Positions 6,127 through 30,106 of a DNA stretch of 35,574 nucleotides are shown here, piece after piece. Below the pieces are notes generated by a model that worked only from the letters and a program-made list of their open reading frames with translations, ran no database searches and was not told the origin of the DNA. The translations under genes were made by a program, and so were the position numbers. The stretch lies in assembly GCA_017398685.1 (NCBI GenBank), contig JAFQFH010000078.1, positions 1 to 35,574 of the forward strand. The letters are read 5' to 3'. Every line of letters begins with the position of its first letter. Positions within the stretch are counted from its first letter, which is position 1. The stretch is from Oscillospiraceae bacterium (GTDB lineage Bacteria; Bacillota; Clostridia; Oscillospirales; Oscillospiraceae).

Positions 6127-6636
6127 TCAAAGAGTGAGAGAGGGCGCTGTATACACTCTTGCCGCATACTCCTGGTCAAGCAGGTAAAGTCCCTTGGGAT
6201 CCTGTCCGAAGAGTTTATAACGGTTGATCATGCTGTCAGCATTGTCCTCTTCCTCCATCTGCTCATCCACAAACCAGTCAAGAAACTTCATTGTGCGGTA
6301 GTCCTTTGCCTGATGTGCTTCATGGTAGATATTGTTGATAAGCTCTGTGACATAACGCTCATGCTCGGCTGCTATAAGGAGAGGATCAAGCACGGACTCA
6401 AAACTTTTGTCAGGCTTGGCGATAGCGTCAAGACTTACATCAAGTCCGTTATTCTGAAGATACTTCATGAAAAGCAGTGCATGATCACGCTCTTCCTGAG
6501 CCTGGATCATGTAGTAGTTTGAGTATCCGTCAAGATCAAGCTTATCGTAGTATATTGCCATGTCAAGATAGAGATAGGCAGAATAAAACTCCTTGTTGAT
6601 TTGCTCGTTCAAAAGGGCAGCAACTTTATCGTTCAT
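6127..6636 (-). CDS. ftn: Ferritin (non-haem, FtnA-like)
   Basis: A 169-residue four-helix-bundle iron-storage protein that oxidises Fe(II) and stores ferric mineral in a 24-mer shell. Ferroxidase ligands are visible: E16 in NKEFYSAYLYL, and E49 with H52 in QAQEERDHALLFMKYL, plus a later Glu in EHERYVTEL and the DEQMEEE segment near the C terminus. ATG 6636 is used because AAGGAG lies 8 bases upstream; a GTG 18 bases earlier would include the ribosome site itself. The PerR/Fur-like gene ends 19 bases upstream, so both share a transcript, linking iron storage to metal or peroxide sensing. Confidence 0.96.
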   Translation of the reverse strand: MNDKVAALLNEQINKEFYSAYLYLDMAIYYDKLDLDGYSNYYMIQAQEERDHALLFMKYLQNNGLDVSLDAIAKPDKSFESVLDPLLIAAEHERYVTELINNIYHEAHQAKDYRTMKFLDWFVDEQMEEEDNADSMINRYKLFGQDPKGLYLLDQEYAARVYTAPSLTL

Positions 6637-6655
6637 AATTTTTCTCCTTTTCACA

Positions 6656-7057
6656 TCAATTATTCAACTTATTTTTACAAACATTGCAAACACCATTAAA
6701 GGAAAGTACATATGATTCTGCAACACAACCGGTATTGTCAGAAATCTGGTTAAAAAGTGGCTTAATCATCTCGGGGAAATCCACATCAATCACACGACCG
6801 CAATTATTACAGACAAAGTGAGCATGAGGCTCCGTGTGCGCGTCATAACGCTCCTGCCCGGCCACATGGGCAACACGGCTGACAAGACCGTCTTCCACAA
6901 GAACGGACAGATTGCGATACACAGTTCCAAGACTGAGTTCTGGGATTTCAGGCTTAAGCGCGGCATACAGCATTTCAGCTGTAGGATGCTCTCTGGTTGA
7001 AGAAAGAGCATGCAATATGGCAGTTCTCTTTTTGCTGTTTTTACGTTTTTGTTCCAT
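6656..7057 (-). CDS. perR: Fur-family metalloregulator, PerR-like
   Basis: A DNA-binding repressor that uses a regulatory metal to sense iron or peroxide. The 133 residues contain the winged helix with SLGTVYRNLSVLVEDG, the metal-site stretch HAHFVCNNCGRVIDVDFP and a second structural-zinc pair CNVC near the C terminus, matching the CxxC...CxxC layout of PerR. PerR versus Fur cannot be settled without the metal-ligand comparison. ATG 7057 is preferred since GGAGGTG lies directly upstream; the ATG at 7069 would place the ribosome site inside the gene. It leads the two-gene operon with ferritin, and an imperfect operator overlaps its promoter. Confidence 0.9.
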   Translation of the reverse strand: MEQKRKNSKKRTAILHALSSTREHPTAEMLYAALKPEIPELSLGTVYRNLSVLVEDGLVSRVAHVAGQERYDAHTEPHAHFVCNNCGRVIDVDFPEMIKPLFNQISDNTGCVAESYVLSFNGVCNVCKNKLNN

Positions 7058-7067
7058 CTGCACCTCC

Positions 7068-7096
7068 ATAACAATAATAATTCTTACTATCGTTAT
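7068..7096. promoter_or_regulatory. Candidate PerR/Fur operator
   Basis: A 29-bp imperfect palindrome (ATAAC...GTTAT ends, 22 of 29 positions symmetric). Its central 15 bases (7075-7089, TAATAATTCTTACTA) match 10 of 14 fixed positions of the Bacillus Per box TTATAATnATTATAA. It lies at the expected transcription start of the regulator-ferritin operon, which suggests autoregulation. Confidence 0.5.
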
Positions 7097-7166: not shown

Positions 7167-7739
7167 TTATTTCAAATATTCCTCAGGCCATGGGCTGAGA
7201 CTGCCTTTGTTAACCATATACGCCCTGTCGGCAATTTTAGCCATAGGTGAATCCGTCAGAGAATCGGAATAAAACTCTTCCGTGTGAGCGCCCGGATATT
7301 CCTCGTAAAAACGGCGCACTTTCTCCTCGTCGTGACAGTTCTCACCTGGTATCTTACCGGTGGTTTTATCCATGGGAGTAGCTATCAGAGCAAGACCCAG
7401 TTCGCGCATGATCGGCTTCAGGAGAAATTCGGGAGATGCGGAAATGACAAGATCATCGGCCCTCCGCCGCTCCAGATACCAGTCACCTATTCCCTGCTTC
7501 TTTTCCTGCCAAAAGCATTCAACCAGACTATCCACATCCTCCAGATTGCAAAGGAAAGAAAAAACCTGCTCTTTAAGTTCCTTGGTTTCTATCCTTTTTG
7601 CAGCGTACAAAAGAGCTTTTATCAAAGTACGCGGAAGTGTTGGAATAACAGCGCCGGGTCTACGCAAAAAGCACCACTTGAAAAAATCAGCAGAGCTGTC
7701 GTTTATGTAGATGGTTTTATCAAAATCGTAAGTGTTCAT
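7167..7739 (-). CDS. HAD-superfamily phosphatase (subclass IB-like)
   Basis: 190 residues. Motif I is DFDKT with nucleophile D5 and acid/base D7; motif II is ISASPEF; the lysine motif and motif IV (SDSLTDSP) follow. The all-helical cap inserted after motif I matches phosphoserine-phosphatase-like HAD proteins, which hydrolyse small phosphomonoesters; the substrate cannot be told. It starts 3 bases after the nitroreductase stop and has no clear ribosome site of its own, suggesting translational coupling. It is the last gene of the operon, followed at once by a terminator. Confidence 0.85.
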   Translation of the reverse strand: MNTYDFDKTIYINDSSADFFKWCFLRRPGAVIPTLPRTLIKALLYAAKRIETKELKEQVFSFLCNLEDVDSLVECFWQEKKQGIGDWYLERRRADDLVISASPEFLLKPIMRELGLALIATPMDKTTGKIPGENCHDEEKVRRFYEEYPGAHTEEFYSDSLTDSPMAKIADRAYMVNKGSLSPWPEEYLK

Positions 7740-7742
7740 TTA

Positions 7743-8261
7743 TCAGAGGACGTAATAAATGTAGTTTTCCTTGCGGGGTTTCATCTGGGGAGTTTCATCG
7801 GCATAGCCGAGTATGCAGTTGCCAACACCTATATAGTCACCCTCAATGCCCCATTTTGCCAGAAGCTCCTTGCCCTCCGGCATTTCAAAAAGCTCTTTTG
7901 CGCGGTTTATCCAGCAGGAGCCGAGGCCGGTGGCATAAGCCGCATTCATAAGATTACCCATAACAAGGCTGCCATCAGCCACGGCATTGGGATTTTTGGC
8001 ATCTGCCAGAACAACCAGAACAGTGGGAGCACCGTAGAAAGGATCGCTTGTCACGCCCATGATCTGAGCATTGAGCTTGGACATGAAGGCAATTGTCTCC
8101 TTATCCTGTACAACAACAATGATCGGAGACTGAAGGTTTTTCGCGGTGGGAGCAGATACACCGGCCTGAAGGACGGCACCAAGCTCCTCCCTTTTGATCT
8201 GCTCGCTCTTATATTTACGTATGCTGCGGCGGTTGAGAAGACATTCCATTGCTTTATTCAT
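7743..8261 (-). CDS. Nitroreductase-family flavoprotein
   Basis: 172 residues, the usual size of FMN-dependent nitroreductase-fold oxidoreductases that use NAD(P)H. NRRSIRKYKSEQIKREEL at the N terminus and SAPTAKNLQSP form the FMN phosphate site; GLGSCWINRAKE and IGVGNCILGYADE are the typical C-terminal motifs. ATG 8261 overlaps the stop of the upstream ATPase-like gene as ATGA and is preceded by GGAGG, so it is preferred to ATG 8276. The physiological substrate is unknown; the operon gives no direct clue. Confidence 0.92.
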   Translation of the reverse strand: MNKAMECLLNRRSIRKYKSEQIKREELGAVLQAGVSAPTAKNLQSPIIVVVQDKETIAFMSKLNAQIMGVTSDPFYGAPTVLVVLADAKNPNAVADGSLVMGNLMNAAYATGLGSCWINRAKELFEMPEGKELLAKWGIEGDYIGVGNCILGYADETPQMKPRKENYIYYVL

Positions 8262-10231
8262 CTGCGCATCCTCCATTTTTTATAATTATAATTAATTACC
8301 TGTAAGGAATTAAAATACATAACCATGCTAAGAACAAAGTCTGTCAGAACAACAGCTGCCAAGCCAAGCACTCCGCTGATAGCCAGCACAAAGAGCAGCA
8401 GTTTTATTCCGCCGGCAAGAAGTATATTCAATCTGCCCACAGAGCGCACAAATTTGGATATACCCATTATCTCAGAGAGCGCTGCAAGCTTCTGTGAAAA
8501 CACCAGGACATCGCCCTTTTCATAAGCATCAAAGCTGCCCAATGCGCCCATGGAGATGCCTGTGTCAGCGCGGCTAAGCGCTTCGGGGTCTCCCGCAGCA
8601 TTGGAGACAAAGGCCAGAGTGCTCCTTTCGGCTTTGGTGGCCATAAGATACTCCACTGCCGAAACCTTGGCTTCGGGACTGAGCTCTGCACGTACAAGGT
8701 CCATGTTCAGGGATGATGCAAGCGGCCTTGCCACGGACAGCACATCCGCCGTAAGAGTAACCATGTTCTTAACGCCGTGTACACGAAGCTGCTCAAGCTG
8801 GTCAAAGGCATATTCCCTGACTTTGTCAACCAAAAGAATATATCCCACGCATTTCCCGTTGACAGCCACAAAAATCGCACTTCCGCCCTTCTTGGGCAGC
8901 GGTGTCTCGATTGAATGCTCTGCAAGCAGCGCTGCATTACCTACGTACACGTGCTTGCCACTTACCATGGAACTGACACCTTTGCCCGGTATCTCCTCAC
9001 ATCTGGTGCTTTTGCCAAGCTCCGGATATGGTCCGTAGGCCTTGCATATGGCCTTTGCAACAGGGTGCTCGGAGTGGGCCTCAGCATGGGCTGCAACAGT
9101 AAGAAGTTCCTGCTCATCCATACCGATGGGAACTATGTCCACAACTGAATACCTGCCCTCGGTGAGAGTACCGGTTTTATTGAAAACAAAGGTCTGTGTG
9201 TCGGCAAGAACCTCAAAAAAGCGGGTGCCCTTGAACACTATGCCCTTTCTTGCGGCCCATACCCTGCCGCTGTGATAGGCGTGATTGATGCTGATGGCAA
9301 GACCTGCGCATCCTGAAATAGCCAGCACTGCCGCAGCACGGCTGAGCCATTTGTGCCATTCACCGCTGAACGCCGGAACAATCAGCGCGGTAGCCAGCGC
9401 CGCAAGCACGATCAATGGGGTATAAAAACGCTCAGCCTTACCGGCCAGTTTCTCCTGGCTAGGCTTATATTTGTCGGCCTTTTCCAAAAGTTCGCTTATT
9501 ACAGCCGCATTGGAACCGGAATACATACACTCAGCTTTTATTCTCACAGTGGAGCTGAGATTTGTGCAGCCAGAGAGCACATAGCTGCCCTCACTTACGG
9601 CTATTCCGGACATCCCTGAAATGAACACAGACGCATCCATCACACTGTTGCCTTCAATAACGGTTCCATCTACTGGGAAAACTTCCCCTGCCCGAACTTC
9701 AAGAATGTCATTTTCCGCTATCTTCTCAGGCTCCGTTTCACGCAGACCTCTCTCCGTAACAAGGTTTGCACTTTGAGGCAGAAAGGATGTAAAGCTTTCC
9801 GAAAGCTTGCGGCTATCGGAAAGGACATAGCCTTCGGCAAGCTTGACAATGCGGTAGCAGAGCACTATAAGCACAGCTCCGGCATAATGGCCCAGCGCAA
9901 AGCTCAAAGCCGCAGACAGCAAAACAAGCACATCCGACTCCAGAAGCTGAATACTCAAAATCTCATCCACGGCGCGCAGGAGAACCTGAAGCGCTGCTGC
10001 CGCCAACGCCGCAGCAAAAAGGCCGATTGTCAAAATGCCATCTCCGCCGACAGCTAGAGCCGCCACAAGCAAAAGCGCCGACAGAGCAATAAAAGCATAG
10101 TTTTTCCACCCCAGCTCTGTCAGCTCGTTTTTTATACGGCTGCTCTTGCGTTCCCTGAGAGGAACATTCAGAACGCTGGGTTCCGGCTCTTTTTCATGTT
10201 TATTTTTTTTGGGCGGAAGATGTTTGCTCAT
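8258..10231 (-). CDS. Catalytically degenerate P-type ATPase homologue (pseudoenzyme)
   Basis: 657 residues with the full P1B heavy-metal ATPase architecture (membrane helices, actuator, phosphorylation and nucleotide domains, final helices), but the conserved machinery is altered throughout. The phosphorylated Asp of DKTGT is Asn351 (NKTGT, codon AAT at 9179-9181). TGES in the actuator is replaced by ISGMSG, CPC in the metal-site helix by GCAG, TGD by TAD, and GDGxNDxPAL by SNAAGDPEAL. The SEHPVAKAI motif remains, as does the fold-level pattern. The frame is open with no stops, so this is not simple decay; it probably has a non-transport role. The N terminus is Lys/Glu rich. ATG 10231 has AGGAGG 12 bases upstream and overlaps the VanZ-like gene by 32 bases. 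Confidence 0.85.
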   Translation of the reverse strand: MSKHLPPKKNKHEKEPEPSVLNVPLRERKSSRIKNELTELGWKNYAFIALSALLLVAALAVGGDGILTIGLFAAALAAAALQVLLRAVDEILSIQLLESDVLVLLSAALSFALGHYAGAVLIVLCYRIVKLAEGYVLSDSRKLSESFTSFLPQSANLVTERGLRETEPEKIAENDILEVRAGEVFPVDGTVIEGNSVMDASVFISGMSGIAVSEGSYVLSGCTNLSSTVRIKAECMYSGSNAAVISELLEKADKYKPSQEKLAGKAERFYTPLIVLAALATALIVPAFSGEWHKWLSRAAAVLAISGCAGLAISINHAYHSGRVWAARKGIVFKGTRFFEVLADTQTFVFNKTGTLTEGRYSVVDIVPIGMDEQELLTVAAHAEAHSEHPVAKAICKAYGPYPELGKSTRCEEIPGKGVSSMVSGKHVYVGNAALLAEHSIETPLPKKGGSAIFVAVNGKCVGYILLVDKVREYAFDQLEQLRVHGVKNMVTLTADVLSVARPLASSLNMDLVRAELSPEAKVSAVEYLMATKAERSTLAFVSNAAGDPEALSRADTGISMGALGSFDAYEKGDVLVFSQKLAALSEIMGISKFVRSVGRLNILLAGGIKLLLFVLAISGVLGLAAVVLTDFVLSMVMYFNSLQVINYNYKKWRMRR

Positions 10232-10700
10232 CTTGCTTCCATTCCCCTCCTGACTTGAAAATAAACTTCCTGACTGTGTACAAGCATACAATTGCAGTCA
10301 GTGCACCTGCCGAGTCCAGCAGCACATCCGAAAACTGCATCGACCGGCCCGGCACAAAATACTGATGTATCTCATCGCTTGCTGCATAAAGAAAATTGAA
10401 AATAAAAGCGCAGATTGGAGGCGGGACTTTCCCTTGCCCCAATGGGCCAAGTTCAAAAAACATCAGCGACGAGCTGAGTCCCAAAGCGAAAAACAAAGAA
10501 AAATGGGCCAGCTTTCGTATGATAATTTCATACCGCTCCATAAATTGCTGTAAATTGAGGCATGATAAAATTTTATACAGCACGCTGTCGCTCAATTTCT
10601 GCGACGCGGCAGCATCCTGAGCAGAAAAAGCGAAAATAAGCGCCATAAGGAAAAGGCTTACAAGTATATAAACGCCCAGCCTGAACCTATATTTTGTCAA
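10200..10700 (-). CDS. VanZ-like membrane protein
   Basis: About 166 residues with four hydrophobic segments. VanZ-family hallmarks are FSAQDAAASQKLSDSV after the first segment, RKLAHFSLFFALG, and DEIHQYFVPGRSMQFSDVLLDSAGA. VanZ proteins are linked with low-level glycopeptide resistance, but most homologues have no known function. A TTG start at 10700 is chosen because GGGGAGAG lies 6-8 bases upstream; GTG 10718 is possible but has no site. First gene of the operon with the degenerate ATPase, nitroreductase and phosphatase. The C terminus is hydrophilic and overlaps the next gene by 32 bases. Confidence 0.88.
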   Translation of the reverse strand: MTKYRFRLGVYILVSLFLMALIFAFSAQDAAASQKLSDSVLYKILSCLNLQQFMERYEIIIRKLAHFSLFFALGLSSSLMFFELGPLGQGKVPPPICAFIFNFLYAASDEIHQYFVPGRSMQFSDVLLDSAGALTAIVCLYTVRKFIFKSGGEWKQDEQTSSAQKK

Positions 10701-10731
10701 AACCGACTCTCCCCGCACAAATATTCATTTT

Positions 10732-25976: not shown

Positions 25977-26041
25977 TGGCGGTGGGTTATCATCTGCTGA
26001 TATCTTAAAGAAAAAAAGGAGCGTCCCAGGGCCATAAAATA

Positions 26042-26088
26042 ATAGAGACTGTCCTTGCAAATATTGCACGACAGTCTCTATTTTTTTG
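26042..26088 (+). terminator. Terminator downstream of the MFS gene
   Basis: A 12-bp stem ATAGAGACTGTC/GACAGTCTCTAT with further TGCA/TGCA pairing inside, followed by TTTTTTT. 65 bases past the MFS stop codon. Confidence 0.88.
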
Positions 26089-26130
26089 AAACGCAAAAGG
26101 CCACTGGTTCAATATCCGCTTCTGCAAAAG

Positions 26131-26166
26131 AAAAAAGCTCGGAGGGCTATGCCCTTCGAGCTTTTT
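26131..26166. terminator. Second hairpin terminator, two-way
   Basis: AAAAAGCTCG-G-AGGG pairs with CCCT-T-CGAGCTTTTT around a CTATG loop, with A and T flanks, so it can work in both directions. It would stop minus-strand transcription arriving from the accessory region. Confidence 0.75.
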
Positions 26167-26173
26167 GGTCGGA

Positions 26174-26198
26174 ATGTAATTATAGGGTTTAGTCAGTC
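26174..26198 (+). repeat. Dispersed 25-bp repeat, copy 1
   Basis: Begins ATGTAATTATAGGGTTTAG and ends TCAGTC; identical at 21 of 25 positions to 26888-26912 in the same orientation. A shorter inverted relative lies at 26820-26835. Its 3' end runs into CAGTCAAGCGAGAGG (26194-26208), which recurs inverted at the recombinase promoter. Confidence 0.55.
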
Positions 26199-26221
26199 AA
26201 GCGAGAGGAAAAAAGATTACA

Positions 26222-26248
26222 AACCGAGGTACATGTTGTACCCCGGTT
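26222..26248. repeat. Inverted repeat/hairpin
   Basis: AACCG-A-GGTACA and TGTACC-C-CGGTT form a near-perfect stem around a TGT loop. No T tail follows, so it is not a simple terminator; it may be a protein-binding or transposon-end structure. Confidence 0.5.
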
Positions 26249-26397
26249 ATAGCCAGTGAGATTTTTTTCAAAACAGTATATTTTTACCATTCATCGACAA
26301 AGTAAGAATAACTGTAGGAATGCCATATTGTAGCATCAAAAATTTTTGGCTTGTTTTTGGTTCGTACCAGATTACTTATTATGCCTTGAAACTCAGT

Positions 26398-26619
26398 TTA
26401 AGGTTTTATCATTTCTCCTATAGGGTTATTGCTTTTAAGTCGGTATATTTTCCCTGTACTGTCTGAGACAAAAAAGATTAACTTGCGCCGGGGGTTAATA
26501 GTCTTTTCTGCAATACATTCTTTTAAATTTCGCACAAAGTATTTGTGTTCTAAATATAGATCAATTTTGTTTTCGATTTCTAGTTCATATGGCAGAGAGG
26601 GATTAATTCTGCGCGTTAG
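26398..26619 (-). pseudogene. C-terminal fragment of an unknown gene
   Basis: A 73-codon open frame on the minus strand with no ATG, GTG or TTG near its beginning, bounded upstream by a stop at 26620-26622. It reads like real protein (for example NPRRKLIFFVSDSTGKIYRL and YLEHKYFVRNLKECIAEKT) and ends ...NPIGEMIKP then TAA. This suggests the 3' end of a gene whose front part has been lost. The family was not recognised. The overlapping plus-strand frame is judged a shadow. Confidence 0.4.
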
Positions 26620-26655
26620 CTAGCAAATTTCAAAACAACTTATAATGGTATGCGG

Positions 26656-26745
26656 ATGTCAATGAATCTGTGTGCTATGGACGGAGTAATGCTATTTATA
26701 CAGGATGACAAGACACCAGTTAAACCGGAAGAGAACGAATCATAA
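26656..26745 (+). CDS. Possible 29-residue peptide or gene remnant
   Basis: ATG 26656 opens MSMNLCAMDGVMLFIQDDKT followed by PVKPEENES and TAA. The acidic, hydrophilic end resembles the C terminus of a larger protein, so it may be a remnant. There is no good ribosome site upstream. No family recognised; low confidence that it is expressed. Confidence 0.2.
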   Translation: MSMNLCAMDGVMLFIQDDKTPVKPEENES

Positions 26746-26819
26746 AAGCAGCTATTCGCATTAGGAATACTATTATCAAAAACTCTGTCCCGCTATAATC
26801 AAAGGATAAGAAAGAGCGT

Positions 26820-26835
26820 CTAACCACAATTACAT
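26820..26835 (-). repeat. Inverted relative of the dispersed repeat
   Basis: CTAACCACAATTACAT is close to the reverse complement of the element at 26888-26906, missing three bases. The two form an inverted pair about 50 bases apart. Confidence 0.4.
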
Positions 26836-26887
26836 GTGAGTAGACTCTTTGAAAAATCGAATATTTAACGCAGGAAACATGGCCTAA

Positions 26888-26912
26888 ATGTAATTGTGTG
26901 GTTTAGTTAGTC
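26888..26912 (+). repeat. Dispersed 25-bp repeat, copy 2
   Basis: Begins ATGTAATTGTGTGGTTTAG and ends TTAGTC; differs from copy 1 at 4 of 25 positions. The two direct copies, 714 bases apart, bracket the gene fragment and hairpins of the junction region. Confidence 0.55.
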
Positions 26913-27006
26913 CGACAGGAGACTAAATTATAAATTGCTACTTTGGGATGTATTATCTACAATTTTTTTACAACAAAGCTTATTTTTGAACGTTATTAAT
27001 TCCCTT

Positions 27007-28554
27007 TTAGACGAGAGAATTAATCCATGCCCATATATTGGTAAGCCATGTTGCAATAGGTGCGCTCCACTCCGGGAAAATCAGGAGAACAAGCGTTAAA
27101 ACTGCAATAAAAAACATTATGTAATTTATTAATCTGTTTCTCGACTCATTCTTGTAGTTTTGTAGATGCTGTAAAACAGCTTCTTTGCTGTCAAAGTCTT
27201 TTGCCAATATTGCTTGTTGAGCTTGAATTCTTTTCATTGAATCAAGAGGAATGTCTGTAAAATAAGTGTAGTCATAGCCCCTGCTCACGGTCTGATTGTT
27301 AAAAAGTTTTGCAACATTTCCCACTGTACGTTCCCAAATATCATCTGATGAAAAACGTACATACATATCCATGTCCCTTTCAAATTTATAGTGCAGTTTT
27401 AAGAGACTATGTATGCGCCTTTTTCTAAGTTTGATTCTGTTGAGCTTGTGCTTATAGTGTATTAGCTCTTTGGAAAAATAGTTATTTAATATATCTAGGA
27501 ATTGAAACTTGAAAAAATCACGAGAGTAGTCCCAGTAAAACCAATGAATTATCTGAAATGCAAGGTCATGAAAACCCGCTTCAAGAGATGTTTTTTCATC
27601 ATGGAATATAAAAATCATATCACTATGAGTATGTTTTGAAAACCTAGCACTTAAATCAGTTTTGAAGAATATTTTTTTGCTCTCGTCTATTGCTTGCCAT
27701 TCCAAAGCAGGAACCCCTAGTGACCTCCAGAATTGAGTTGCAGAAGAATCTGAGTAGTCAATATTAGTTTGATAGAACAGAATGCCAGGCGGAGCCAGAT
27801 TCAATTCATGAAGAACTGTCGGAAAAAATCTTTGTAAAGCACAGTAGAATTTCCATTTAAGGGACACCATATTCTCATGAATAACATCACTTTTTTGGTT
27901 TGCCTCATTATAGTGGCACAGAGCAAATGTTTTTCTTCCGCCGCTTTGCTTATTGTTTCGCCTAAAAGCAAAATTGATGTATGTTTTTTGTTCGGTGATA
28001 TTAGAATCGATGATTTGTTGAAGGTTATTGGCGTATTGTTTAGTAAAGTAAATGTGCGTTTCTACCGACAAATAAGAGTCGTTAATCTTTCGTATATGCA
28101 AATCGAAGTAAGATATATATGGTTGTAATGAGGGCAGAAGGTCAAAATCAAATCTCCCCGCATCAATGGATGTATAATGCCAAGTTAGTGTATCATCCAT
28201 GTTTTCTACGGAAGTTAGCACTTCGTCTATTGAACGGAATCCACCCAGAAATTTATGCGAGTGATGTTTTTTCAGTAGTTTAACTAATCCTCTTTTTAAT
28301 AGCGGAAGGTTCTCCCTCAAAATCAAGTCTGATGTAATTAAACAAACTGGATTGCAATGCTTCCCATTTGGGATAGAATAGTTTTCTCTGATGCAAGGTA
28401 GTTTAGTGATGAAGTAATCTTTATATGTGCCCTTATAATGTTCACGCATTCTCCGTGACCGTGCACAATATTGCAAGAAGAAGTATTCCAACTGTGCAAC
28501 TCTGTAAAGGGTATTTTCTATGAATTTCTTGCGTTCAACACCATAGTCTTTCAA
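27007..28554 (-). CDS. Unknown 515-residue protein with C-terminal membrane segment
   Basis: A large, basic, aromatic-rich protein (for example YFFLQYCARSRRMREHY near residue 25 and IIHWFYWDYSRDFFKFQFLD near 345). It is soluble for about 480 residues and then has one or two hydrophobic segments (LINYIMFFIAVLTLVLLIFP and IATWLTNIWAWINSLV), so it is probably tethered to the membrane by its C terminus. A basic helical stretch (HKLNRIKLRKRRIHSLLKLH) lies near residue 380. No catalytic motif or family was recognised. The CorA-like shape of the tail lacks a GMN signature. It starts with TTG, preceded by AGGTGGTGA. It follows the Fic gene by 24 bases and shares its transcript. Base composition is AT-richer than the core genes. 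Confidence 0.8.
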   Translation of the reverse strand: MKDYGVERKKFIENTLYRVAQLEYFFLQYCARSRRMREHYKGTYKDYFITKLPCIRENYSIPNGKHCNPVCLITSDLILRENLPLLKRGLVKLLKKHHSHKFLGGFRSIDEVLTSVENMDDTLTWHYTSIDAGRFDFDLLPSLQPYISYFDLHIRKINDSYLSVETHIYFTKQYANNLQQIIDSNITEQKTYINFAFRRNNKQSGGRKTFALCHYNEANQKSDVIHENMVSLKWKFYCALQRFFPTVLHELNLAPPGILFYQTNIDYSDSSATQFWRSLGVPALEWQAIDESKKIFFKTDLSARFSKHTHSDMIFIFHDEKTSLEAGFHDLAFQIIHWFYWDYSRDFFKFQFLDILNNYFSKELIHYKHKLNRIKLRKRRIHSLLKLHYKFERDMDMYVRFSSDDIWERTVGNVAKLFNNQTVSRGYDYTYFTDIPLDSMKRIQAQQAILAKDFDSKEAVLQHLQNYKNESRNRLINYIMFFIAVLTLVLLIFPEWSAPIATWLTNIWAWINSLV

Positions 28555-28578
28555 AGCAAATCACCACCTATAAATATT

Positions 28579-29517
28579 CTAAAATGTTTTCCAACACTTG
28601 TTTCGCATGAACTTTACAATTTCTCCAGCATCCCTGTCCTCGTAGTATGCGACCAACAAACGCTTGAATTCAGGCACAAAGTTTTCGGGAATTACAAGGA
28701 GACCATGCCCTTTAGAAATCATATAATGATTGGCAAAGATAACGGCAGCTCTCTTATTTCCATCATTAAAGATTTGAGTTTTCATGCAGTAAAGGCAAAG
28801 ATTAATAGCGACGGTTACTTCATCAGTGCTGTCATTAATAATTTCATCTATTTTCTCTTTGACAATGGTTTCAATTGGCAGAGGAGGAATATAGCTCGTT
28901 CCGCCTATTGTCACAGGTACACCACGTATACGACCACCATCAGAGTAGAAACCCTCGTTGATAAGCTTAGCAATATGGCAAAGAATATGATAATCAGTAC
29001 CGTAGCTGAGAACATCTTTATCCAAAATAAATTCCCATGCGTGTTTGAGATTCAGAATCTTCTGTACATCGGTTGCGGTCATGCCGGACACAATACCGTT
29101 TTCTATAATGTCCTCGGTTTGTGGGAATGTTGTTGCAACGCCCTCCAAAACAGCCTGATCATAGATGTTCGATTTCATGTTTGCTCTGGCAAAATCAAGA
29201 TTGAGCATTACTCTTGGAGAGAGTTCCGTTTCTTCATAGCCCAATGCTGCCAGATCTTTTTCAACACGACGGATGTTTTTTCTCAACTCTCGTGCATCTC
29301 TGGAGTTTCTGAGAAGTAACTGATATAAATCATCTGAATAACTATCTACATATGTCGATGTTAAACGACTACCTATTCTTTTTCTAACATACAGATATTT
29401 CTGCCCATCACGGTCTTTAATTTCTGGTGTTCCATCATATGGTATTAAGTTAAGACGGGCTTGGAAATCAGCTTTCTGATGTAACAACTCTTGAATCTTA
29501 GAGTATACGTTTTCCAT
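28579..29517 (-). CDS. Fic-fold protein with altered catalytic motif
   Basis: 312 residues. Fic proteins usually attach AMP or another phosphate-linked group to target proteins through HPFxxGNGR. Here the motif is QIFNDGNKR at 248-256: the phosphate-binding GN and R remain and GNKR is Doc-like, but the catalytic His position is Gln248. An inhibitory-helix-like AVLEGVATT lies around residue 145, retaining E-G, but the preceding Ser/Thr is Gln. So transferase activity by the usual route is doubtful; some Firmicutes homologues appear to share this variant. AAGGAGG lies 7 bases before the ATG. First gene of a two-gene unit with the 515-residue unknown. Confidence 0.88.
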   Translation of the reverse strand: MENVYSKIQELLHQKADFQARLNLIPYDGTPEIKDRDGQKYLYVRKRIGSRLTSTYVDSYSDDLYQLLLRNSRDARELRKNIRRVEKDLAALGYEETELSPRVMLNLDFARANMKSNIYDQAVLEGVATTFPQTEDIIENGIVSGMTATDVQKILNLKHAWEFILDKDVLSYGTDYHILCHIAKLINEGFYSDGGRIRGVPVTIGGTSYIPPLPIETIVKEKIDEIINDSTDEVTVAINLCLYCMKTQIFNDGNKRAAVIFANHYMISKGHGLLVIPENFVPEFKRLLVAYYEDRDAGEIVKFMRNKCWKTF

Positions 29518-29549
29518 GACAGCCTCCTTGGGGAACTTTTTTTGAAATT

Positions 29550-29578
29550 AGTATACTAAAATTTTCCCCAAAACACAA
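29550..29578 (-). promoter_or_regulatory. Promoter of the Fic unit flanked by TTCCCCAA motifs
   Basis: On the minus strand TTGTGT (29573-29578), 17 bases, and TATACT (29550-29555). The -10 sits between inverted copies of the motif: TTGGGGAA at 29529-29536 and TTCCCCAA at 29564-29571. A third copy lies at 29641-29648. The arrangement suggests a repressor site, perhaps for self-control. Confidence 0.55.
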
Positions 29579-29824
29579 GTGGTTAATCTTCCATATTGTA
29601 ATTTATAGGGAACTTATCTAACTAGAAATTAAAGAAATGTTCCCCAAACATGGGGTCGTGTAATAAACATGAATTGGGACAAGTAATATGCTAAAAATTT
29701 CTAGCTTAAGATTGGAAAATATGCGTCCTGAACCCGTTGATTTTCCTAGGTTTTTTAGGCCTGTTTTGGGTGGGGTAATATGATTATACCTTTTTGCCCG
29801 ATTTGGCACTTTAATTGTCAACAT
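29579..29824. other. Intergenic stretch without a recognised gene
   Basis: AT-rich spacer between divergent accessory units. It holds one more TTCCCCAA motif followed by CATGGGG (29641-29655). Nothing else was recognised; the open frame on the minus strand here has no ribosome site and no family resemblance. Confidence 0.5.
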
Positions 29825-29852
29825 TTGCATGGTTGACCACACAGGTTATAAT
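29825..29852 (+). promoter_or_regulatory. Candidate promoter of the accessory plus-strand unit
   Basis: TTGCAT (29825-29830), a 16-base spacer and TATAAT (29847-29852). The predicted start lies at the foot of the hairpin at 29858-29894, so transcription could be attenuated almost at once. Confidence 0.5.
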
Positions 29853-29857
29853 AAAGG

Positions 29858-29894
29858 CAGTGGACTTGTCGTTATGATAAGTTCACTGTTTTTT
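29858..29894 (+). terminator. Hairpin with T tract immediately after a promoter
   Basis: CAGTGGACTT pairs with AAGTTCACTG (one G-U), then TTTTTT. It has intrinsic-terminator form, but no gene ends near it on this strand. It could be a leader attenuator or an insulating terminator of lost sequence. Confidence 0.65.
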
Positions 29895-29914
29895 CATAAG
29901 GAGCGGGGATTCCC

Positions 29915-30106
29915 GTGACGCAACCAAATTCCTCGGGACAATTTGTCCCAAGGACAAGCGAAATTTGCGAGTGTGGCCACACTTGCCCTGCTTGCCGTCC
30001 CGGGAAAACTAACCTTATTGACAAAAGACTTGTTCTAATCTTAAATGAAAATCAGAAAAATATTTTATTTTTCTGTGCAATCTTTTCTTCCATTTTACGA
30101 CTTTAG
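29915..30106 (+). CDS. Small Cys-rich protein of an accessory element
   Basis: 63 residues from a GTG start with AAGGAG 11 bases upstream. The middle contains CECGHTCPACRPGKTN, a C-x-C-G-H-x-C-x-x-C cluster suited to zinc; the end is hydrophobic. The start region can fold (CGGG/CCCG between ribosome site and GTG), and a palindrome GGGACAATTTGTCCC lies within codons 7-12. It ends 19 bases before the sigma factor gene. Family not recognised; expression uncertain. Confidence 0.4.
   Translation: MTQPNSSGQFVPRTSEICECGHTCPACRPGKTNLIDKRLVLILNENQKNILFFCAIFSSILRL
29935..29949. repeat. GGGACAA palindrome, copy 1
   Basis: GGGACAATTTGTCCC is a perfect 15-base palindrome. With its right flank it matches the near-palindrome at 34261-34279 upstream of the TnpW-like gene. 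It may be a shared operator or a conserved leader of mobile-element transcripts. Confidence 0.5.
30018..30046 (+). promoter_or_regulatory. Candidate promoter of the ECF sigma operon
   Basis: A consensus -35 TTGACA (30018-30023), 17 bases, and TTAAAT (30041-30046), inside the small Cys-rich frame and 80 bases before the sigma gene. Confidence 0.45.

Follow-up and report, generated by a model that had tools for sequence, protein, structure and literature searches.

P-type ATPases are defined by an aspartate that is phosphorylated and by a cycle in which three domains take part. Described members related to the gene treated here include the solved pumps ZntA (4umv) and CadA (7qbz), which we take to carry the class label P1B-2. 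As far as the available part of the source goes, precedents exist for work of P-type ATPases other than pumping, e.g., in SPCA2: with its D379N mutant resting Ca2+ still rises, and the protein is described as a chaperone and activator of Orai1 (PMC7827456). For the apicomplexan and ciliate guanylyl cyclase with a P4-ATPase domain (PfGC-alpha), the authors infer, in the portion of the text at hand, that the Asp is needed (PMC7858053). Among the matches listed from the open-licence PMC literature, judged by titles and the beginnings of abstracts, no natural clade of dead P-type ATPases was described. In the present study a stretch of 35,574 nt from an Oscillospiraceae bacterium (contig JAFQFH010000078.1, assembly GCA_017398685.1), hereafter the window, was analyzed with regard to a minus-strand gene for a homologue of heavy-metal (P1B) pumps with substituted catalytic motifs. 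With a probability of about 0.93 this gene is considered to encode a pseudo-P-type ATPase, that is a pseudoenzyme. The genus of the bacterium is labelled g1; loci and genomes bear L and G numbers.

Catalytic motifs and phylogeny of the dead copies

The predicted protein, 657 codons without internal stops, is, judged from its sequence, a P1B (Zn/Cd-type) ATPase homologue: homology extends over most of its length, the closest solved relatives are CopA and ZntA (expectation value, E, about 1e-51), and Pfam recognizes E1-E2_ATPase (2.4e-22) and HAD Hydrolase (4.8e-13). The N-domain residues of the family (ExxSxHP, GxG, GN) are present, and the Asp, TGE and CPC are absent. With 339.5 bits the protein lies slightly below the cut-off of the heavy-metal P-type model TIGR01525 of NCBIfam (346.25) and passes that of the general P-type model TIGR01494 (103.2 vs 62.3), and annotation pipelines are therefore likely to label it a P-type ATPase and to register a dead pump as a working one. 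The protein starts with MSKHLPPKK; the nearest relative has the same N-terminus, and many clade members have a similar one, M[AGS]KHLAP.

Set in register against the intact P1B paralogue of the same genome (L002), the window protein displays VFNKTGT with Asn351 at the site of phosphorylation, VFISGMSG for ALTGESLP, SGCAG for SCPCA and LTADV for LTGDN, and in the GDGxND region FVSNAAGDPEAL stands where the intact pump has FVGDGINDAPVL. An earlier note on this DNA had reported Asn351 together with substituted TGES, CPC, TGD and GDGxND over 657 intact codons, all of which was confirmed on the translation. It mentioned neither that KTG, the three N-domain motifs and the P-domain residues Asp496 and Lys522 are kept, nor L002 with its CPC, TGES and DKTGT.

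The nearest relative, L023 (Oscillospiraceae bacterium isolate RGIG4239, roe deer colon), is 78–79% identical and shows the same Asn, losses at the same motifs and the same surrounding gene order, in line with the note's view that no isolated error was involved; it was found by an exact-pattern scan of genome contigs, as was the intact and distant L024, and is apparently the same as L080 of G220, which has the same motifs. Profiles built from four and then 54 members were run over 102 genomes of g1, the latter again over the 29 g1 genomes without a dead-copy match; copies were first labelled dead if any of CPC, TGE or DKTG was missing. Full-length dead copies were read in the DNA of 90 genomes (one row each, window included), with fragments L237, L238, L242, L243 and L244 as well as L212 (G266) left out. 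Four further genomes hold a broken, edge-cut or internally deleted copy (G239, G264, G265, split over two frames, and G266, with an internal deletion), so that dead copies occur in 94 of 102 genomes; the remaining eight are 57–80% complete. Intact P1B copies were read from 32 g1 genomes, 26 of which also yielded a dead copy. As the dead copy is common to 90 genomes, a sequencing error or one-strain accident was ruled out.

In the family outside g1, no dead P1B relative was found among the loci whose motifs were read, all of them being intact; bit scores do not distinguish diverged dead copies from intact pumps. Beyond the family, coverage consisted of the exact-pattern scan of genome contigs and a search of a plasmid collection; the latter returned at least 5000 matches, all below 60% identity, and the five listed were annotated as ordinary heavy-metal ATPases.

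Across the 90 rows the position of Asp351 is occupied by D (28), G (24), S (14), N (11), E (11), C (1) and T (1), and the phosphorylated Asp is hence absent from 62 members. On the tree at least 14 changes over the seven states are required, and at least six for Asp versus not-Asp. The earlier note had proposed to test for a clade with conserved Asn; the clade is not of that kind, with Asp replaced by any of six residues. The Glu of TGE is retained in ten of 81 rows; the other nine lack the A (actuator) domain. The second Cys of CPC is kept in 7/90 and the whole motif in 1/90, and the first Asp of GDGxND (Asp544) is present in 59/90. Glu206, CPC and Asp351 never occur all together (0/90), while 16 rows, among them the window by its letters, have kept none of Glu206, CPC, Asp351 and Asp544. 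The nine rows without A domain (L227–L235, from nine genomes) show a clean deletion of about window residues 157–247, i.e. the actuator domain, and carry Gly or Ser at the catalytic Asp position; of the three scanned with Pfam, L228 and L233 gave no E1-E2_ATPase match and L231 gave one below cut-off, while what is left of L228 still hits P1B pumps of solved structure. Two members may be useful as intermediates: L106 (G237), with CPC and Asp kept and TGE lost, and L083 (G109), in which TG, TGD and GDG are kept but Asn is present.

In the phylogenetic analyses the dead copies form a single clade, which is sister to intact pumps of the genus labelled g102. FastTree, applied to the 90 dead and 64 comparison rows selected as intact, placed all dead copies on one side of a branch (support 97–99) with 0/64 intact rows inside; it gave a long-branch warning, and the positions of L236, L162 and L225 are unsure. 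IQ-TREE (LG+C20) was run with the TGES, CPC, DKTGT and GDGxND columns removed on 47 of the 154 rows (28 dead, 19 intact), which were chosen for spread and excluded those without A domain; here the dead copies were united at 100/100, and their grouping with four intact pumps of g102 received 100/99. These four (L055, L064, L245, L246), and L251, which was read in part, each have a gene for a HAD-IB phosphatase directly behind them, and so the pairing of the two genes probably arose before pumping was lost.

Retained residues and selection

Residues around the nucleotide pocket were kept. In the N domain, E384, G418 and G431 are invariant (90/90), followed by N432 (86), H389 (84) and G416 (82); in the P domain K522 is present in 90, K352 and D496 in 89. 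In ATP7B, G1099, G1101, G1149 and N1150 lie near ATP, and a direct role of the N-domain His in ATP binding is doubted, according to the part of the source available (PMC3203118); the clade residues equivalent by motif to these four are kept in 82, 90, 90 and 86 of 90 rows.

Conservation was compared by domain as mean pairwise identity over up to 1200 sampled pairs, with 33 intact g1 rows as reference. For the N domain it amounted to 0.50 in the dead clade vs 0.56 in intact g1 and 0.51 in all intact rows, for the P domain to 0.48 vs 0.64–0.66, and for the A domain to 0.33 vs 0.67 in intact g1; in the membrane part dead and intact g1 rows gave 0.25 and 0.61 (M1-M2), 0.29 and 0.75 (M3-M4), and 0.27 and 0.69 (M5-M6). 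The N domain is conserved almost as in intact pumps, and the membrane and A domains have relaxed. In fourteen columns a residue is shared by at least 85% of the dead clade but by no more than 25% of the intact rows; two of these columns are N-terminal and mostly absent from intact rows. Those in the P domain comprise R472 (which replaces a Lys), F476, D477, E480, R483, S499, R502, F510 (Met in the window) and Y528, and because of their spacing positions 472, 476, 480 and 483 would share one helix face.

The ratio of nonsynonymous to synonymous substitution rates (dN/dS) was estimated by the Nei-Gojobori method for dead pairs more than 70% and intact pairs more than 80% identical, with medians taken from pairs with dS < 2.5. 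The window and L080 gave 0.076 at a dS of 1.9, which is near saturation. The median was 0.105 for dead pairs (n = 47; maximum 0.264), with 0.05–0.26 in all pairs examined, and 0.141 for intact pairs (n = 33), which indicates that the dead copies are under purifying selection. Both features of a pseudoenzyme were thus found, catalytic residues lost across a clade and purifying selection on an open frame. According to the note, close relatives with intact motifs or a dN/dS near one would have told against its proposal that the fold of a pump had been retained for a different function; the nearest relative turned out to be dead as well, the window pair lies far from one, and the idea itself held up, given a monophyletic, genus-wide clade without working motifs and with dN/dS near 0.1.

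Gene neighbourhood and the HAD-IB phosphatase gene

In the window the ATPase homologue belongs to a close-packed minus-strand run of VanZ-like, ATPase, nitroreductase and HAD-IB phosphatase genes (Table 1), and the overlap of 32 bases between the first two was given correctly before. Of the three neighbours whose constancy the earlier note had proposed to test, only the phosphatase proved to be a constant one. Of the 89 relatives' loci, 84 have a HAD-IB gene downstream in the same orientation: it is adjacent in 60 (median 6 nt), set apart by a nitroreductase gene in 22 and by gaps of 174 or 285 nt in two. It is the most regular neighbour of the dead pump across g1. VanZ was encountered upstream in 23/89 loci, a count limited to the fetched flanks with a few loci ending at contig edges, and nitroreductase in 22/89; as fixed partners both were therefore ruled out.

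Table 1. Positions of the pseudo-P1B-type ATPase gene, its motif sites and the adjoining genes in the window.
Feature	Position	Strand	Remark
Pseudo-P1B-type ATPase gene	8258..10231	-	657 aa; ATG at 10231
TGES position (A domain), residues 204-207 I-S-G-M	9611..9622	-	catalytic Glu replaced by Gly206
CPC metal motif position (M4), residues 307-309 G-C-A	9305..9313	-	
Phosphorylated Asp of DKTGT, position of Asn351	9179..9181	-	
ExxSxHP of N domain, residues 384-390 EAHSEHP	9062..9082	-	intact
GxG of N domain, residues 416-418 G-K-G	8978..8986	-	intact
GN of N domain, residues 431-432 G-N	8936..8941	-	intact
TGD position, residues 494-496 T-A-D	8744..8752	-	Asp496 kept
GDGxND position, residues 543-548 S-N-A-A-G-D	8588..8605	-	first Asp replaced by Asn544; Asp548 kept
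VanZ-family gene	10200..10718	-	overlaps ATPase gene by 32 bases; RKLAH and DVLLD, VanZ-2-type motifs by eye
Nitroreductase-family gene	7743..8276	-	between ATPase and HAD genes; overlaps ATPase gene by 19 bases
HAD-IB phosphatase gene	7167..7739	-	starts 3 bases after nitroreductase; DxDxT and other HAD motifs intact

The phosphatase of the window matches PF12710 (4.1e-18) and reaches 64.9 bits with TIGR01490, below the cut-off of 98.3. Its HAD motifs (DxDxT, S/T-A-S, K140, D159/D163) are intact in 85/85 rows, and D5, D7, T9, S100-A101-S102, K140, D159 and D163 are each found in at least 95% of them. The gene was detected in 93 of the 102 g1 genomes and in 34/34 of those of best quality. Both genes occur in 93 genomes, neither in eight, the pseudo-pump only in one (G232) and the HAD gene only in none (Fisher p 4e-11).

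Behind the HAD gene of many relatives (L081, L086–L095 and others) there are, by eye, what we take to be SpoIIIAA/SpoIIIAB-like sporulation genes, and in other relatives presumably L27/Obg-like genes precede the pair. Downstream of the run in the window, on the same strand (6127–7069), come a Fur-family gene, whose start is 97 bases from the HAD gene, and a ferritin gene behind it. In three loci of another genus, g41 (L254, L257, L259), the HAD-IB gene is directly followed by a partial P-type ATPase of different build (VDKTGTITENK), and in two loci of a third genus, g57 (L268, L272), by a VanZ-family gene; in the HAD-IB family such associations with P-type ATPases and VanZ may be more widespread. 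Farther away, positions 26001–30000 show a guanine plus cytosine content of 0.35–0.38 vs 0.44–0.54 elsewhere in the profile and hold an open reading frame (28579–29517) that is Fic-like by eye (FNDGNKR) and a gene for a putative membrane protein (27007–28554); this stretch was perhaps acquired.

Interpretation and comparison with known systems

Homology, motif loss, monophyly, purifying selection, conserved pocket residues and gene pairing are established by the sequences themselves. As the cycle was lost, the N-domain pocket kept, the membrane part relaxed and a phosphatase paired with the gene, the best reading is that the head of N and P domains would act as a nucleotide-dependent membrane regulator or sensor, or as a scaffold, with the HAD-IB phosphatase as partner, to which we give about even odds; nucleotide binding by the pocket, a physical partnership with the HAD protein and the direction of regulation are what we infer. 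The ancestor was a P1B Zn/Cd-type pump, probably already with a HAD-IB gene behind it, as is still seen in g102. In g1 the pump cycle was lost, with most members devoid of the Asp, the dephosphorylating Glu and the CPC ion site gone, and in nine the actuator as well. The N domain and the P-domain scaffold were retained, some new conserved P-domain residues arose, and the membrane part, relaxed towards an anchor, would hold the cytoplasmic N/P head. This head may bind ATP (or ADP) without hydrolysis, and its nucleotide state may decide on docking or regulation of the phosphatase encoded by the next gene. The fuller proposal, a genus-wide pseudo-P-type family whose N/P head serves as a membrane nucleotide sensor controlling the HAD-IB protein, with changes as far as deletion of the actuator, is tentative and put at somewhat less than even odds.

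Several points weigh against the regulatory reading. Asp351 is kept in 28/90 members, Asp544 is missing in 31/90, His389 in six and Gly416 in eight; the window copy lacks both Asp544 and the Gly of TGD, which makes the P-domain half of its site weaker than in most relatives. R502 is already present in three of four g102 pumps and is thus not new in the dead clade. Two AlphaFold models, with a predicted local distance difference test score (pLDDT) of 35.9 and 38.8, gave no usable structure. The co-occurrence of pump and HAD gene is inflated by their linkage and by incomplete genomes or missing contigs. Five loci had no HAD gene in the fetched flanks, and for one of them, in G232, no HAD match was found in the genome. 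In the other four, G109, G209, G212 and G256, the match lies on another contig and is weaker (202–243 bits), which is why it may be a paralogue; those of G212 and G256 come near the score of second copies in G277 and G278 (180–187 bits). In the wider family, where 45 HAD-IB matches were obtained and 30 fetched with their near neighbours read, 20 of the 30 loci had no P-type ATPase within about 1.5 kb, one of these being G109 of g1.

Gene pairing with HAD and the loss of Asp544 in 31/90 would suit a plain membrane anchor or scaffold for the HAD-IB protein (in some species for VanZ or nitroreductase), in which the pocket residues only stabilize the N-domain fold. We regard this as unlikely, because N-domain identity is near that of intact pumps (0.50 vs 0.51 overall and 0.56 in g1) and the invariance of E384, G418 and G431 exceeds the needs of a mere anchor.

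The intact L002 in the window genome, and the 26 of 32 genomes with intact copies that also have a dead one, could point to a regulatory subunit that tunes the intact P1B Zn/Cd paralogue of the same cell. This is improbable: L002 and the dead gene are on different contigs in the window genome, the membrane parts, as a possible pairing surface, are among the least conserved, and P1B pumps are not known to be obligate oligomers.

A protein that still works as enzyme or transporter, with another residue phosphorylated, with the 28 Asp-bearing members cycling or as a passive channel, could draw on those 28 members and on the Glu of 11/90, which might imitate phosphorylated Asp. It seems slightly more improbable again, as only three of the 28 have the Glu of TGE and one has CPC, membrane identity of 0.25–0.29 gives no hint of a common ion path, and nine members lack the A domain, which known P-type cycles require.

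That the dead pump is a partner of VanZ, as the earlier note had entertained, would fit the upstream VanZ gene, overlapping or abutting, of the window and of 23/89 relatives, but is highly improbable with no VanZ match in the fetched flanks of 66/89 loci, whereas HAD is found in 84. Decay after duplication, with relaxed selection and eventual loss, to which long branches, low membrane-domain identity and the damaged copies of G265 and G266 might point, deserves next to no credence and was rejected because of dN/dS (0.05–0.26 in all pairs examined), apart from the open frames in 90 genomes, copies in 94/102 and newly conserved residues.

The graded loss from intact g102 pumps to members without Asp, CPC and actuator would reveal which parts of the machine have value beyond pumping. 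If the sensor proposal is true, the g102 orthologues, intact and next to this phosphatase gene, would represent the state before, and the change of a pump into a sensor could be traced.

Among known systems, ZntA and CadA resemble the clade most directly: its profile matches them nearly full-length (E 9.7e-117 and 1.1e-111), and the N and P domain layout and the pocket residues are shared; they differ in that the dead clade never has Asp, TGE and CPC all together and includes the nine members without A domain. The partner gene resembles HAD-IB phosphatases (PF12710; TIGR01490, HAD-SF-IB-hyp1; 3fvv) in its PF12710 membership and its HAD motifs, 3fvv being the sole solved chain found by the HAD-IB profile at E ≤ 0.01 (2.8e-6), and departs from TIGR01490 in staying below that cut-off. 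By eye the window VanZ shows both motifs, RKxxH and DxxxD, of the VanZ-2 lipocone family as given in the available part of PMC12419801, in whose main text, so far as available, the terms 'P-type ATPase' and 'HAD phosphatase' are absent; here the link to VanZ is occasional. As far as the available parts of the two sources reach, PfGC-alpha likewise has a P-type ATPase module that acts upstream of another enzyme, the module being fused rather than neighbouring and, by the authors' view of the Asp, catalytically active, and SPCA2 with Orai1 shares with the dead clade a P-type ATPase with a non-pumping job, but SPCA2 is an active, eukaryotic pump and D379N a laboratory mutant, in contrast to the natural clade in g1.

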